A stretch of DNA of 21,251 nucleotides, taken from contig JAJRZV010000118.1 in NCBI GenBank assembly GCA_024275095.1, positions 1-21,251 of the forward strand, written 5' to 3'. The translations under genes were made by a program, and so were the position numbers. Shown piece by piece: positions 133 through 20,810 of this stretch. A model generated the notes under the pieces. It did not search any database. It worked only from the letters and a program-made list of their open reading frames with translations, and was not told the origin of the DNA. The first letter of the stretch is position 1; each line of letters opens with the position of its first letter. Source of the stretch: a bacterium. GTDB lineage: Bacteria > JAJRZV01.

Positions 133-471
133 CTATAGCTCCTTCTTCCCTTTCTCTTTCCTCGCATCTCTTAACGCTTCCGTATACTTTATCGCAAATT
201 CCTTCATCAACTCCTGAACCTTCCTGCCGCTCTCGACCATCCTCTTCACCTCCCCAGCCAGCTCACCAGGCACATACACCGCTCGCCTCTTCCCCTTACG
301 CCTCACGTAAAGCACGTAACTGGAATGTCCCTCGCCTGTCTCGCATAAATGACAGCCCGGATAAGTACATGGACTTTTGCGTAAACTTAGAGAACCCAGC
401 CCCGCGGGAGTTAATTTCTCCAGCTCCTCATAAAACCACCTGATTACTTCTTCGGGATTTTTCTTCTCCAT
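133..471 (-). CDS. DUF6788-like small protein, transposase-associated type
   Basis: A 112-residue soluble protein. An N-terminal helix is followed by a motif of the form GSL-LRK, then a C-x3-C-x2-C cluster (CTYPGCHLC, about residues 35-43), a basic beta segment (YVLYVRRKGKRRAVYVP) and a charged C-terminal helix. This layout matches the DUF6788 family as I remember it; such proteins often sit directly before transposase genes, and their biochemical role is not established. The start is an ATG with no clear Shine-Dalgarno sequence, behind a TTGACA -35 element and a palindrome. The stop is TAG (133-135). The same frame stays open from there to the edge of the window, so the gene may be longer, through UAG readthrough or because a fused gene has been broken. 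The family assignment is moderate; expression as a real protein is likely. Confidence 0.6.
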   Translation of the reverse strand: MEKKNPEEVIRWFYEELEKLTPAGLGSLSLRKSPCTYPGCHLCETGEGHSSYVLYVRRKGKRRAVYVPGELAGEVKRMVESGRKVQELMKEFAIKYTEALRDARKEKGKKEL

Positions 472-11274: not shown

Positions 11275-11667
11275 TTAAAGAGCAAGTGAGTCAGTAACCT
11301 TTTTTACCACATCTTCGACACTTACAGGACGTCTCAAAATCTCGACTTTCCTGGAAATTTCTGCAGGAAGTGAATCTGTAAACGAGCTCATTATAACGAA
11401 CACGCGGCATTGAGGTGTTCGTGAAAGGATGAGATTTATAATTTCTTCACCATTTAATGTGCGGGTTATATCTACTACTGCTCCGATTACTTCCACGTGT
11501 TTTTCCTGGACCCAGCTTTTAACATCCTCGATAGATTCACAGCCCAGGGCTTCTAAACCTCTGTCCCGGAGAGTGGCACGAACGAGAACCCTTTCCCACT
11601 GATCCCCGGAGACAACCAGAACTACTTTTACACGGAAATCGGACATGCGGCTATTATCCCAGGTCAT
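11275..11667 (-). CDS. Receiver-like (CheY-fold) small protein, atypical
   Basis: 130 residues with the alternation of a CheY-type receiver domain: strand VKVVLVVS, helix, strand VIGAVVDITRT with Asp66 at the phosphorylation position, strand CRVFVIMSSF, and VEILRRPVSVEDVVKKV near the end. The acidic pair normally after strand 1 is absent (SGDQWERV), and the conserved Lys-Pro near the C-terminus is Arg-Pro. Normal phosphotransfer is therefore doubtful and it may be a pseudo-receiver. No output domain is present. The ATG at 11667 overlaps the preceding gene by 14 bases; ATG 11646 is an alternative. Embedded in a housekeeping operon with no kinase nearby. Confidence 0.6.
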   Translation of the reverse strand: MTWDNSRMSDFRVKVVLVVSGDQWERVLVRATLRDRGLEALGCESIEDVKSWVQEKHVEVIGAVVDITRTLNGEEIINLILSRTPQCRVFVIMSSFTDSLPAEISRKVEILRRPVSVEDVVKKVTDSLAL

Positions 11668-13087
11668 TAAACGGCCTCATCCTTAACGGGACGTTGAGTG
11701 TATCTGCCACTGTCTGCACATCTTTTACCCGGAATGCACCGGGGATTTCCACTGCGGTTACCACAACGCGGGCGTATTTTGTGGCACTGCGAACGAAATT
11801 GAGAAGAGCGTTGAATGCGTCCATCCCCGAGGGAGGACGACATAGTTTGTTGTAAGTAGCTGCATCCGGCGCGTTTAAACTCACAGAATACATATCAATC
11901 AGTCCCTTCAAATATGCGGGAACATCAATTCCATGTACGGCGCTTGCCAGTCCGTCTGTATCTATCCTGATTGAGGCCGCTCCACGCTTTTTCAGCACTG
12001 AAGCTACATCTTTTACCACATCCAATCTGAGCAGCGGTTCTCCATATCCGCAAAAGACCACTTCATCATACCGGGATACATTATCGCCAACTGCATCCAG
12101 TATTTCATTTGTAGAGGGCTCTTTGTCGAGTTTGAGGTAATGTCCCTTTACGTACCATGAGCGAAATTTCCCACAAAAAGTGCAGGTGTTGGTGCACCTG
12201 TTGGTGATGTTCAAGTAAAGGGAATTTCTTATCCGATAGGCTATCTTGGGTTCATTTTCGTACGGAATTTTGAACGCCCTGTGAAAGTTTAAATTGGTCA
12301 CCCGCATGACGTCTTCTGGTGCAAGATTTTTCAGGCGGGCGATCTCTTCTACCACTTCCTTTACACGTGCCGGCTCATTGCGTTTGCCTCTGTAGGGATG
12401 TGGTGAAAGGAAGGGGGAATCGGTTTCTACAAGAAATGCCTCCACCGGAAGGGTCTGTACCACTTCACGTACGCGGGATTTTTTGAAGGTAACAGTGCCC
12501 GATATGGAAAGATAAAAACCCAGAGAAAGAGCTTTTCGTGCCTGTTCCACGTCACCTGAAAAACAGTGGAAAATTCCGCCTGTTAAGCCGTTACCTTCCT
12601 TCTCCACAATTGCGAGAGCATCGTCCATTGCATCGCGTACGTGAACAACAAGAGGTTTTTGAAGTTCTGCCGAAAGTCGTAGAGATTTTGTAAACCATTT
12701 TTTCTGTACGGCAACAGGAGAGTATTTTTTGGCATAATCCAAGCCTGTTTCTCCTAAGGCGACGAACAACGGGTCAGAGCGCAGGGTCTTTATTCGTTCA
12801 AACCATTCATCATCTGCCATTGCTGTTTCATGGGGATGTACACCGGCAGCGTAATATATACCTCTGTGCGAATGTGCGATTTTCCTGGCGTCTTCTATAC
12901 TTTTTAGACCTTCACCACATCCTACTTCTACCATCCATTTTACGCCTGTGTATTCCGCGCGGCGTATGACATCATCGCGGTCTTCACCATAATGGGGAAA
13001 ATGAAGGTGAACGTGAGAATCTGTCAGGACTTCATCTATTCTATGCGGGGAAAGATGGGTGTCAGATCCCCGATTTTTGTTTTCCAT
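11654..13087 (-). CDS. TatD family metallohydrolase fused to a radical SAM domain
   Basis: 477 residues. Residues 20-270 are TatD: DSHVHL (His25, His27), GETGLDY (Glu113), VVHVRD (His149), FHCFSG (His174) and ETDSPF (Asp223), all metal or catalytic residues of the two-metal TatD DNase family. Residues 280-477 are a radical SAM domain with the CTNTCTFC cluster motif (Cys298, 302, 305) and a GYGEP motif (347-351). This pairing is a known family, the TatD-associated radical SAM protein; its reaction is not established. The ATG at 13087 is chosen for its ribosome-binding site GTGGGGGAG, 6 bases upstream. A GTG at 13102 lies inside that site. The gene begins 52 bases inside the end of metG. Confidence 0.9.
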   Translation of the reverse strand: MENKNRGSDTHLSPHRIDEVLTDSHVHLHFPHYGEDRDDVIRRAEYTGVKWMVEVGCGEGLKSIEDARKIAHSHRGIYYAAGVHPHETAMADDEWFERIKTLRSDPLFVALGETGLDYAKKYSPVAVQKKWFTKSLRLSAELQKPLVVHVRDAMDDALAIVEKEGNGLTGGIFHCFSGDVEQARKALSLGFYLSISGTVTFKKSRVREVVQTLPVEAFLVETDSPFLSPHPYRGKRNEPARVKEVVEEIARLKNLAPEDVMRVTNLNFHRAFKIPYENEPKIAYRIRNSLYLNITNRCTNTCTFCGKFRSWYVKGHYLKLDKEPSTNEILDAVGDNVSRYDEVVFCGYGEPLLRLDVVKDVASVLKKRGAASIRIDTDGLASAVHGIDVPAYLKGLIDMYSVSLNAPDAATYNKLCRPPSGMDAFNALLNFVRSATKYARVVVTAVEIPGAFRVKDVQTVADTLNVPLRMRPFNDLG

Positions 13088-14535
13088 TTGATGCTCCCCC
13101 ACTCAAGTGGATTTCCATCAGTAACTTCAGGGAAACCCACCATTTCCATCATCTTGTTGAATGCTTCAGGCATAAATGGATAGCACATATACGCTACAAT
13201 ACGCAGTGCTTCCGATAGCTCAGCAAGGACACCATCCAGTCCAGCATCTTGCTCCCTGGCCATTTGCCAGGGTTTTTTTCGGTCAATGTATACGTTGGCC
13301 CTGGAAACGAGTCCCAGCAAACCCTCTCCTATGGCCCCTTGGAAATCTAATTTTTGCATGCGTGACGTATACTCTCTTATACACTCCTGCGCTTCCTCTG
13401 CCAGCTCATTTTTTTCGGAAATTTCAATTCCTGCTGGACGATATTTTTTTATCATTCCACAAACTCTTGAAAACAAATTGCCTATATCATTTGACAGCTC
13501 GGAGTTTACCCGGTGTACAAGCGATGCTTCAGAATAGTCTCCATCCAGGCCGAATGGAACTTCTCTTAAAAGAAAGTAACGGAATTTATCCACTCCAAAT
13601 CGTTCTGCTTCGATGACAGGATCTACAACGTTACCCCTGGATTTGCTCATTTTTTCACCTTCTACAGTCCACCAGCCGTGCGCGTAAACCTGTCGGGGCA
13701 GTGGCAGTCCTGCTGAAAGAAGAAACGCAGGCCAGTAGACCGCATGGAATCGAAGTATATCTTTCCCTATGATATGTACATCCGCAGGCCATGTGTTTTC
13801 AAACAGATCTCTGTGGTCCGGGAACCCTGCTCCTGTAAGGTAATTGGTCAGCGCGTCGAACCATACGTAAATCGCGTGTTTTTCATCTCCGGGAACACGA
13901 ATGCCCCATTTTAAACCGAGGCGGGACACGGACAAGTCTTTGAGGCCCTGCTTTACAAAGCTGATGATTTCGTTGCGTCGCCGTTCGGGTTTAATAAAAT
14001 CGGGGTTTTCCTCATAGAACCTTAGCAGAGGTTCTTCATATCTGGAGAGTCTGAAAAAGTAGCTTTCTTCGCTGAGTAGTTCTACATCACGTCCGCAGTC
14101 AGGGCATTTGTTATTTACAAGTTGTGAAGATGTCCAGAACGATTCGCAAGGCGTACAGTACCAGTCCCGATATACACCTTTATATATATCGCCTTTTTCA
14201 TAAATGATTTTCCATATATGTGTAACAGCACGCATGTGATCTTTATCTGTGGTGCGGATAAAACGAGAGTAAGAGATGTTCAGCTTCTGCCATAATTCTT
14301 TAAAACGTACGACCACTCTGTCAGCCAGTTCCTTAGGCTGAACGCCGTAGTCTGAAGCACTCTTTTCCACTTTTTTCCCGTGTTCATCAGTACCCGTGAG
14401 GAAGAAAACGTCATGGCCTGTCATTCGATAGAATCGTGCGAGGGCATCGGCTGCAATGGTTGTATAGGCATGACCAATATGGGGGACATCGTTCACATAA
14501 TAAATCGGCGTGGTTACGTAGTATTTTTTACTCAC
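13036..14535 (-). CDS. metG: Methionyl-tRNA synthetase
   Basis: A 499-residue class I synthetase charging tRNA-Met in the cytoplasm. Motifs: HIGH (19-22), one zinc knuckle C-x2-C...C-x2-C (Cys127, 130, 144, 147) and KMSKS (295-299). It lacks the C-terminal tRNA-binding (EMAP-like) domain of longer MetRS, so it is the short form, which is normal. GTG start with ribosome-binding site AGGAGGAG, lying inside the last codons of ricT (8-base overlap). The stop is TAG with a TGA four codons on (TAG ATG AAG TCC TGA), and the 3' end overlaps the TatD/radical SAM gene. Confidence 0.97.
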   Translation of the reverse strand: MSKKYYVTTPIYYVNDVPHIGHAYTTIAADALARFYRMTGHDVFFLTGTDEHGKKVEKSASDYGVQPKELADRVVVRFKELWQKLNISYSRFIRTTDKDHMRAVTHIWKIIYEKGDIYKGVYRDWYCTPCESFWTSSQLVNNKCPDCGRDVELLSEESYFFRLSRYEEPLLRFYEENPDFIKPERRRNEIISFVKQGLKDLSVSRLGLKWGIRVPGDEKHAIYVWFDALTNYLTGAGFPDHRDLFENTWPADVHIIGKDILRFHAVYWPAFLLSAGLPLPRQVYAHGWWTVEGEKMSKSRGNVVDPVIEAERFGVDKFRYFLLREVPFGLDGDYSEASLVHRVNSELSNDIGNLFSRVCGMIKKYRPAGIEISEKNELAEEAQECIREYTSRMQKLDFQGAIGEGLLGLVSRANVYIDRKKPWQMAREQDAGLDGVLAELSEALRIVAYMCYPFMPEAFNKMMEMVGFPEVTDGNPLEWGSIKWKTKIGDLTPIFPRIE

Positions 14536-17241: not shown

Positions 17242-18441
17242 ATGATTGGGTACATAGAGGCGATGGATCGGCTTATGCGATACGCCCCGCGCATTCGTGA
17301 GTCAGTTGAAGTGACTATTGAAGAGTGCCCGGGCAGGGTGCTGAGCGAGGACGTGTTTTCTCTTGCAGATGTTCCGGGTTTTGACAAGGCAGCCATGGAT
17401 GGATTTGCTGTGCGTTCAGTGGATACACAGAATCCACCCGTGGAGCTGAAGATAATAGAGGATATACCCGCTGGTGTTAAGCCTCGAAAATGCGTTGGTA
17501 AAGGCACTGCCTCTCGTATTATGACCGGTGCTATGCTCCCGGATGGCGCGGACAGTGTGGTCATGTGGGAGGATTGCGAAGAGAAAGATGGCGTTGTTAT
17601 TGTGAAAAAAGCTGTTAAAAAGGGCCAGAATGTTTCCAGGAAGGGGGAAGACTTCTCGAAGGATGCTTTGCTGGCTTCTAAGGGTACTATCCTCGATTTT
17701 CGTCACACTGCTTTGTTCGCCGCGTGTGGTATCTCTCGGGTTAGTGTAGTAAGGAAACCTCGAGTCTGTATATTTACTACCGGTGATGAAATTGTTGAGC
17801 CGGGGGAGGAGGCGATTCCACCTGCAACCTACAATGTGAACCGATCCACACTTTCCGTAATGGTGAAAACCGCTGGAGCTGAGATTTTTCTCTGTAAACA
17901 TCTTCCTGATAATCTTGATGAATTGAAAGAGCACTTCCGGGAATCTGCAGATTCAGGCGCTGACATTCTTCTGTTTAATGCAGGAATTTCCACCGGTCTT
18001 CACGACGTGGTAAGAGGACTCATGAGTGAGGAAGGTGTGAATGAGATTTATTACAAGGTTGCGATAAAGCCCGGGAAGCCCGTGTACTTCGGCATGTACC
18101 GAAACATTCCTGTTTTTGGACTGCCGGGTTATCCCGGTAGCACCATTGTGACATTTTTGAGATTTGTCAAGCCTTTCATCTACCGTATGATGGGGGCTAC
18201 CTGGAAACCCCGAGGAGTTTGGGCAAAAGCTGCCACGGATATTGCTGTGGGGGGCAAACGCCAGTCGCTTATTCGTGTTCAGCTTCGACAAGAAAACCGT
18301 GATTTTGTATTTTCTGAGGCAGGGCCTCATAAGTCCGGTGTGGTTTCAAGCATTGCTGCATCCGATGGTTTTATTCTTGTAGATAATCCTCAGGAAGGTG
18401 TGAAAGCCGGTGAGCGTTTTTTTGTGTATTTCTGGACGTAA
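17242..18441 (+). CDS. moeA: MoeA-type molybdopterin molybdotransferase
   Basis: A 399-residue protein inserting molybdate or tungstate into adenylylated molybdopterin. Domains in order: N-terminal MoeA domain with FDKAAMDGFAV (47-57), MoCF/MogA-like domain with TTGDE (179-183) and KPGKP (276-280), GLPGYPGST (293-301), and a C-terminal beta-barrel with FILVDNPQEGV. Two motifs deviate from the common MoeA form: SGGVS-x-GDYD reads NAGISTGLHD (246-255), and GLPGNP-V-S reads GLPGYPGS. This points to a paralogue, perhaps specialised for tungstate since the next gene encodes an AOR (inference). Ribosome-binding site GGAGG is 5 bases before the ATG. There are 85 bases before the AOR start, so it is likely in the same operon. 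Confidence 0.92.
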   Translation: MIGYIEAMDRLMRYAPRIRESVEVTIEECPGRVLSEDVFSLADVPGFDKAAMDGFAVRSVDTQNPPVELKIIEDIPAGVKPRKCVGKGTASRIMTGAMLPDGADSVVMWEDCEEKDGVVIVKKAVKKGQNVSRKGEDFSKDALLASKGTILDFRHTALFAACGISRVSVVRKPRVCIFTTGDEIVEPGEEAIPPATYNVNRSTLSVMVKTAGAEIFLCKHLPDNLDELKEHFRESADSGADILLFNAGISTGLHDVVRGLMSEEGVNEIYYKVAIKPGKPVYFGMYRNIPVFGLPGYPGSTIVTFLRFVKPFIYRMMGATWKPRGVWAKAATDIAVGGKRQSLIRVQLRQENRDFVFSEAGPHKSGVVSSIAASDGFILVDNPQEGVKAGERFFVYFWT

Positions 18442-18526: not shown

Positions 18527-20515
18527 ATGGCGGGAGGATATGTGGGACGTATTCTGTGGGTGGACCTTTCAAATGGCACCCATGAAATTGAAGAGTTACC
18601 GGAGGAAATATATCGCCATTATATAGGTGGTTATGGTCTGGGTGCCCGCATTATTTATGAACGCCAAAAACCGGGAGTGGATCCTCTGGGCGAGGAAGCA
18701 ATTTTCGGCATGGTACCTGGACTTCTTACCGGCACAGGTGCCCAGTTTGCCGGGCGTTATATGTGTGTGGGGAAGTCACCGCTTACAGGCGGCTGGGGTG
18801 ATTCGAATTCAGGCGGTTTTTTCGCTCCTGCTATAAAACAGTGTGGTTTTGATGGAATTTTCTTTAAAGGTAAGTCTGAAAGACCGGTATATCTTCTCGT
18901 CCAGGGCGATAAAATTGAAATTCGTGATGCGTCTCATCTCTGGGGTAAATCCACGATAGAGACTGAAAAGATGCTCAAAGAAGAGCTGGGTGATTCACGT
19001 GTTCAGGTGGCGTGTATTGGTCCTGCGGGAGAGAACCTCTCATTTATTTCGGGAGTTGTTACGGACAGGGGACGCATCGCTGCCCGTTCAGGGCTTGGAG
19101 CCGTGATGGGGTCCAAAAAGCTCAAGGCGGTGGTACTCAAAGGTAATGCGAAAATTCCCGTACACGACAGGGAACGTCTCATGAATGAGACGCGTCGTTT
19201 TCTGCGACGCATGGCAATTGCGGATAGAATTGTCAAATGGACAAATAAGGGTCTGCTTCACCGGGCAGGTAAACTCATGCGTTTTCTGCCCTTTCACATG
19301 CGCCAGGAAGCAATCCTCTGGAGAATTATTCTCAAAAAATTCGGTACATCTGGCATACTTGCTTTTTCGGTGGAAGGGGGAGATACCCCGGTGAAGAACT
19401 GGAAGGGCGTGGGATACATTGAATTTCCCCTTAAACGCTCTGCTCGTATCAGTGACGCGAATATTATTAAATACGAGGTGAAAAAGTATCACTGCTATTC
19501 GTGTCCCATCGGATGCGGTGGAATCATTAAAAAAACAGACGGTCGTTACCCCATTGAGGAAGGTCACAAACCCTAGTATGAAAACCTGGGCGCACTTGGA
19601 GCGATGAATCTGGTAGATGATCCGGACATTATTTTCATGATGAACGAAATGTGCAACGAAGCAGGGATTGATGCTATTTCTGCAGGAGCTGTGATTTCAT
19701 TTGCCATGGAATTGTACGAGCAGGGGATTCTCACACAAAACGATGTAGACGGATTGGACCTTTCCTGGGGCAATGGAGAAGCTGCAATGAAACTTCTTGA
19801 AAAGATTATCAAGCGTGAGGGAATTGGTGACGTGCTCGCTGATGGTGTGAGAAAAGCAGCCCAGAAAATCGGAAAAAATGCCGACCAATTTGCCATGCAC
19901 GCAGGTGGCCAGGAACTTCCCATGCATGACCCGAGGTATGACCCCGGATACGGTATTGGATACCATGGTGAACCCACACCGGGCCGTCACACCATCGCTT
20001 CATTTACATATCTGGAACTGACCCAGCTTGAGCGTAAATACAAACAGTTCAAAAAGATGAGTGCGCTTATGACCAAATCTTCCTGGTACAAACCCGAAGG
20101 TAAAGGAGAAGCCATAGCGTTTTTGAGCAAATTTTCCCAGACCGCATTTTCAGCAGGCCTTTGCCTGTTTGGTCTTCAAATGGGAGCCGATATTCCACTG
20201 GCGGAATGGATTGCTGCAGCTACTGGCTGGGATTTCACCAATGATGACCTTATTGAAACCGGTCAGCGTATAGGTACCCTCCGCCAGGCGTTCAACGCAC
20301 GCGAGGGGCTTGTTCCAAAACGTGATTTTGCCATCAATCCCCGTGCAATCGGCAAACCGCCGCTGCCCAAGGGACCCACCCAGGGGGTAACACTGGACAT
20401 GGATGCCTACCTGAAAGATTATTACCAGGCGTACGGATGGGACCCTGAAACAGGTATCCCTGTAAAGGAAACCATTGAAAAACTGGGCCTGAAAGATGTG
20501 GTGGAGGAGCTCTAA
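18527..20515 (+). CDS. aor: Aldehyde ferredoxin oxidoreductase, interrupted by one in-frame TAG
   Basis: 662 codons of an AOR-family tungsten enzyme, normally oxidising aldehydes to acids with ferredoxin. Seen: N-terminal cofactor domain (GGYVGRILWVDLSNG, HYIGGYGLGARI), cluster ligands CYSCPIGC (Cys323, 326, 330), NEAGIDAIS (about 376-384) and the fourth cluster Cys (Cys546) in FSAGLCLFG. Codon 350 is TAG (19574-19576) in EEGHKP[TAG]YENLGALG, where relatives carry the Glu of P-E-Y-E; the frame then runs cleanly to TAA. The segment after the TAG has no good start (ATG 19604 has GGAG only two bases before it), so a designed split is unlikely. Either a nonsense mutation or UAG decoding. ATG 18527 follows AAAGGAGG. 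FSAGLC replaces the usual D-x-x-GLC pterin motif. Confidence 0.85.
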
Positions 20516-20810
20516 GAAACCCGCCGGGACAGTTAAGCTTACTGTTGTTGCATTTCTCGATGGTAAGGCCATTAATCGTCAGTTTACAGTTGATATTAAG
20601 GAGGGAGAAACACTCTGGAAGTTGTTCAAAAGACTGGATCGTGAGGGGCCGCTGGATCGAAACTATTTCAAGCGCATTTTCAGTCTTTCGCGGCCACCCA
20701 CGGTACTCCTTAATGGCGACCGTCTCACCGATATTCCCGGAGACCTCAAAAAGATTACTCTCAAGGATGCTGATGAAATTTCTGTTCTCATGCCGATTGC
20801 CGGCGGATAA
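20496..20810 (+). CDS. MoaD/ThiS-like ubiquitin-fold protein
   Basis: A 104-residue beta-grasp protein. A short basic N-terminus is followed by TVKLTVVAFLDGK, INRQFTVDIKEGETL, a helix, VLLNGDRL, and the C-terminal VLMPIAGG. The final Gly-Gly is the site where MoaD and ThiS are adenylated and carry sulfur. Such proteins often sit beside AOR genes and may supply sulfur to the pterin; that role is inferred. ATG 20496 overlaps the AOR stop by 20 bases. No strong ribosome-binding site is seen, so coupling to AOR translation is likely. No ATG, GTG or TTG occurs in frame before the first strand. Confidence 0.8.
   Translation: MWWRSSKKPAGTVKLTVVAFLDGKAINRQFTVDIKEGETLWKLFKRLDREGPLDRNYFKRIFSLSRPPTVLLNGDRLTDIPGDLKKITLKDADEISVLMPIAGG

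Follow-up and report, generated by a model that had tools for sequence, protein, structure and literature searches.

The tungsten aldehyde:ferredoxin oxidoreductase (AOR) of Pyrococcus furiosus (PDB 1AOR) contains the two Pfam domains AFOR_N and AFOR_C, four cluster cysteines, and a catalytic residue, Glu313, within a PxYE context; the adjoining Glu311 is described in a review as highly conserved and as flanking the tungsten cofactor (PMC12096430). In-frame UAG codons within otherwise intact genes are seen in pyrrolysine proteins such as the trimethylamine methyltransferase MttB, and the known pyrrolysine sites belong to methylamine methyltransferases of organisms whose genomes encode the Pyl machinery (PMC8318568). 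Lone stops within intact frames are also the form taken by consensus errors in draft metagenome assemblies, which fall in unrelated genes, essential genes included, and create TAA and TAG alike.

The window analysed here, 21,251 nucleotides in length, is the entire contig C88 of a draft metagenome-assembled genome (MAG) of 2.45 Mb in 136 contigs, estimated as 97% complete; a second genome of the same species was sought and none was found. The features that concern us are as follows.

133..471, minus strand: DUF6788 gene at the left edge, covering the Pfam DUF6788 profile up to position 101 of 103 ahead of its stop
17242..18441, plus strand: MoeA, molybdopterin/tungstopterin cofactor synthesis, upstream of the AOR gene (Pfam MoeA_N, MoCF_biosynth and MoeA_C)
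18527..20515, plus strand: AOR gene (Pfam AFOR_N and AFOR_C, and alignment to 1AOR)
19574..19576, plus strand: in-frame TAG corresponding to Glu311 of P. furiosus AOR, by alignment to 1AOR and to 80 relatives
20496..20810, plus strand: small protein of 104 aa overlapping the end of the AOR gene, MoaD/ThiS-like by look and ending in GG

The TAG at 19574-19576 is present in the assembly in the same frame as the ATG at 18527 and the TAA at 20513-20515, and with it read through the gene encodes 662 aa, matching AFOR_N (6e-78) and AFOR_C (2e-106, residues 265-655), with the TAG inside the second matched span. The two domains thus lie in one frame, confirming the original prediction of an in-frame UAG in an otherwise intact AOR gene; the protein belongs to the AOR/tungsten oxidoreductase family, with both domains and the cluster cysteines, only with the TAG read through. 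Three of these cysteines (Cys 323, 326 and 330) precede the TAG and the fourth (Cys546) follows it, as had been proposed, and each is a cysteine in all 80 relatives. When aligned to 1AOR, the X of the TAG codon falls on Glu311, adjoining the catalytic Glu313, whose equivalent here, E352, is intact. The gene therefore resembles that of P. furiosus in both domains, all four cluster cysteines, the Glu313 equivalent and the PxYE context, but differs in that the Glu311 codon is TAG in the assembly.

The codon at this position was read in 80 AOR relatives, the nearest of which are 60% and 58% identical and come from bacterial MAGs. All 80 encode Glu (37 GAG and 43 GAA), with GAG in the four nearest and TAG in none, in agreement with the proposals that the TAG replaces the Glu of a P-E-Y-E motif and that it is a single-base change from GAG. 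Neither conserved columns nor identity reveal decay of the half of AOR that follows the TAG. Among columns conserved at 95% or more, 49 of 49 are kept before the TAG and 36 of 38 after it; the exceptions are the TAG itself and one position where Ser stands in place of Ala. Compared with the nearest homologue, identity is 62% for the part before the TAG and 59% for the part that follows. Because the second half is undecayed, the nonsense change must be very recent if it is real at all. The only other AOR-like match in the genome (C120), which is distantly related and about 430 aa long, was rejected as a comparison copy.

A total of 738,686 bases of the MAG, including the window, was scanned for long stretches of coding frame with a single stop between them, and the candidates were checked for homology. 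Seven conserved genes in these 739 kb contain one lone in-frame stop each (four TAA and three TAG), as listed below; the scan relied on codon usage and may have overlooked others.

C88 (the window): AOR, TAG
C21, L178:8465-9529, plus strand: prfB (release factor 2), only copy, TAA
C21, L178:714-4172, minus strand: dnaE (DNA polymerase III alpha), only copy, TAA
C59, L171:4754-6232: malic enzyme, TAA
C89, L183:7402-10167: M16 peptidase, TAG
C79, L182:3395-4282: M50 peptidase, TAG
C121, L154:8698-11475: TPR protein, TAA

Two of these genes are especially informative, as truncation of prfB, in a genome where 131 of 242 confident coding frames end in TGA, or loss of the only dnaE should be incompatible with life. 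The prfB TAA, which surfaced in the search for RF1, is separate from the usual frameshift site near the prfB start, and the alignment to E. coli RF2 runs across it without gaps; searches of the genome found neither another RF2 nor a second dnaE. Because the cell should not survive the loss of either gene, the stops in prfB and dnaE are very probably false, and because essential genes are hit and the stops are not specific to UAG, all seven are most likely consensus errors. Under uniform substitution they imply an error rate of about 3e-4 per base, and the lack of TGA among them is then unremarkable (probability about 0.16). The likely original residue is Glu in both AOR and the M16 peptidase, and the E. 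coli RF2 residue is acidic; an oxidative G-to-T signature was considered, and the number of stops is too small to claim one. As a control, 400 kb of a single-contig finished genome yielded eight candidates, none of which, judged by eye only, is a clear interruption of a conserved gene. A TGA in a sodium:solute symporter gene (L171:12886-14811) was left out of the count, as it lies beyond the Pfam match; it is followed by 73 open, membrane-like codons and may represent a further lone stop.

The rate of false nonsense codons in this assembly readily accounts for the AOR TAG, which we consider quite probably to be a consensus error of the draft genome, the error at this particular base being judged from the assembly as a whole. 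The TAG would be one of the single-base nonsense substitutions scattered through the draft MAG, most probably arising at the consensus stage, and the real population would most likely have Glu at this codon and make an ordinary full-length AOR. Compared at the level of assembled sequence, the seven stops share with consensus errors of draft metagenomes the single stop, the intact frame and the spread over unrelated genes, and no distinguishing difference was found. The simpler of the two readings offered originally, an assembly error or a recent nonsense mutation, is thus supported by the lone stops elsewhere, including those in prfB and dnaE, and by the intact second half. More generally, a caution is warranted: before a single in-frame stop in a draft genome is interpreted, it should be compared with any such stops in indispensable genes, here prfB and dnaE.

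The chief alternative is the other part of that reading, a genuine and very recent nonsense mutation, either a new pseudogene or a strain polymorphism, that would truncate AOR after residue 349, inside the C-terminal cofactor-binding part, with loss of the enzyme. One base change from the GAG of the four nearest relatives would suffice, AOR need not be essential, and the lack of damage in the second half is what a recent event would leave; however, stops of the same kind in the unbreakable prfB and dnaE genes demonstrate that such errors are present in this assembly, and we regard a real mutation as rather unlikely.

Decoding of the UAG, either as pyrrolysine or, through a suppressor tRNA, as Glu or some other amino acid, such that full-length AOR is made, was the more exciting proposal, and is unsupported. 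The frame is intact on both sides of the TAG, as in pyrrolysine proteins, but AOR is of a different protein family, its 80 relatives invariably have Glu, and neither mark of a pyrrolysine-encoding genome, a PylS above the family cut-off or a CUA tRNA, was found. A search of this 97% complete assembly recovered 43 tRNA genes, to none of which ARAGORN assigns a CUA or UUA anticodon, and a pattern search added none, its candidates for a CUA tRNA being ordinary Gln and Glu tRNAs together with chance matches. At least tRNA-Asn, Ile(GAT) and Ala(TGC) are missing from the tRNA set, and because it is incomplete the absence of a CUA or UUA tRNA is not absolute, which leaves some room for a missing decoder. 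The PylS profile has a sole match of 26.8 bits against a cut-off of 178; this is lysyl-tRNA synthetase (LysS) and was rejected as far under the cut-off, and the family likewise matches 13 of 14 control genomes. Among terminators TAG is used least often in this genome, as might favor its reassignment, but it is still in use, ending 17 of the 242 frames confidently called as coding (the AOR TAG being one of the 17) compared to 131 for TGA, in a count to which two overlapping loci may have contributed a few duplicate frames. RF1 (prfA) is present and uninterrupted, and the comparable stops elsewhere in the genome, some of them in essential single-copy genes, are mostly TAA. Taken together, these observations make UAG decoding very improbable.

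About equally improbable is a split of AOR into two proteins, the second starting at the in-frame ATG at 19604, 27 nt past the TAG. A GGAG precedes this ATG, but at a distance of just 2 nt and itself as coding sequence, consistent with the earlier view that no start signal supports a split gene; moreover neither protein would contain residues 350-359, among them the counterpart of the catalytic Glu313, and all 80 relatives are one chain through this point. Least probable of all, by a little, is that the cell reads through some UAG and UAA codons, whether with a suppressor tRNA that the assembly lacks or by another mechanism, so that AOR, prfB, dnaE and the others are made at full length. Stops that were real and tolerated would constitute an unusual case of stop-codon readthrough.

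A second open-frame TAG had been noted at the left edge of the window as a hint of readthrough. The codon is indeed there, on the minus strand at 133-135, but the DUF6788 gene that it closes is complete, and because the entire domain precedes it, it is best read as an ordinary terminator. A second copy of this region was sought in the genome, as was a plasmid relative, and neither was found. Beyond the stop, the minus-strand frame at 1-132 is open to the contig edge and coding-like, and may hold the beginning of a neighboring mobile-element gene.

The 104-aa protein encoded downstream of AOR is without a Pfam match, and its assignment as MoaD/ThiS-like is suggested by its appearance, including the terminal GG; a similar small open reading frame is also located downstream of AOR in the nearest relative. 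Elsewhere in the window, we note that a TatD DNase and a radical SAM domain are fused in one open reading frame (11654-13102, minus strand).
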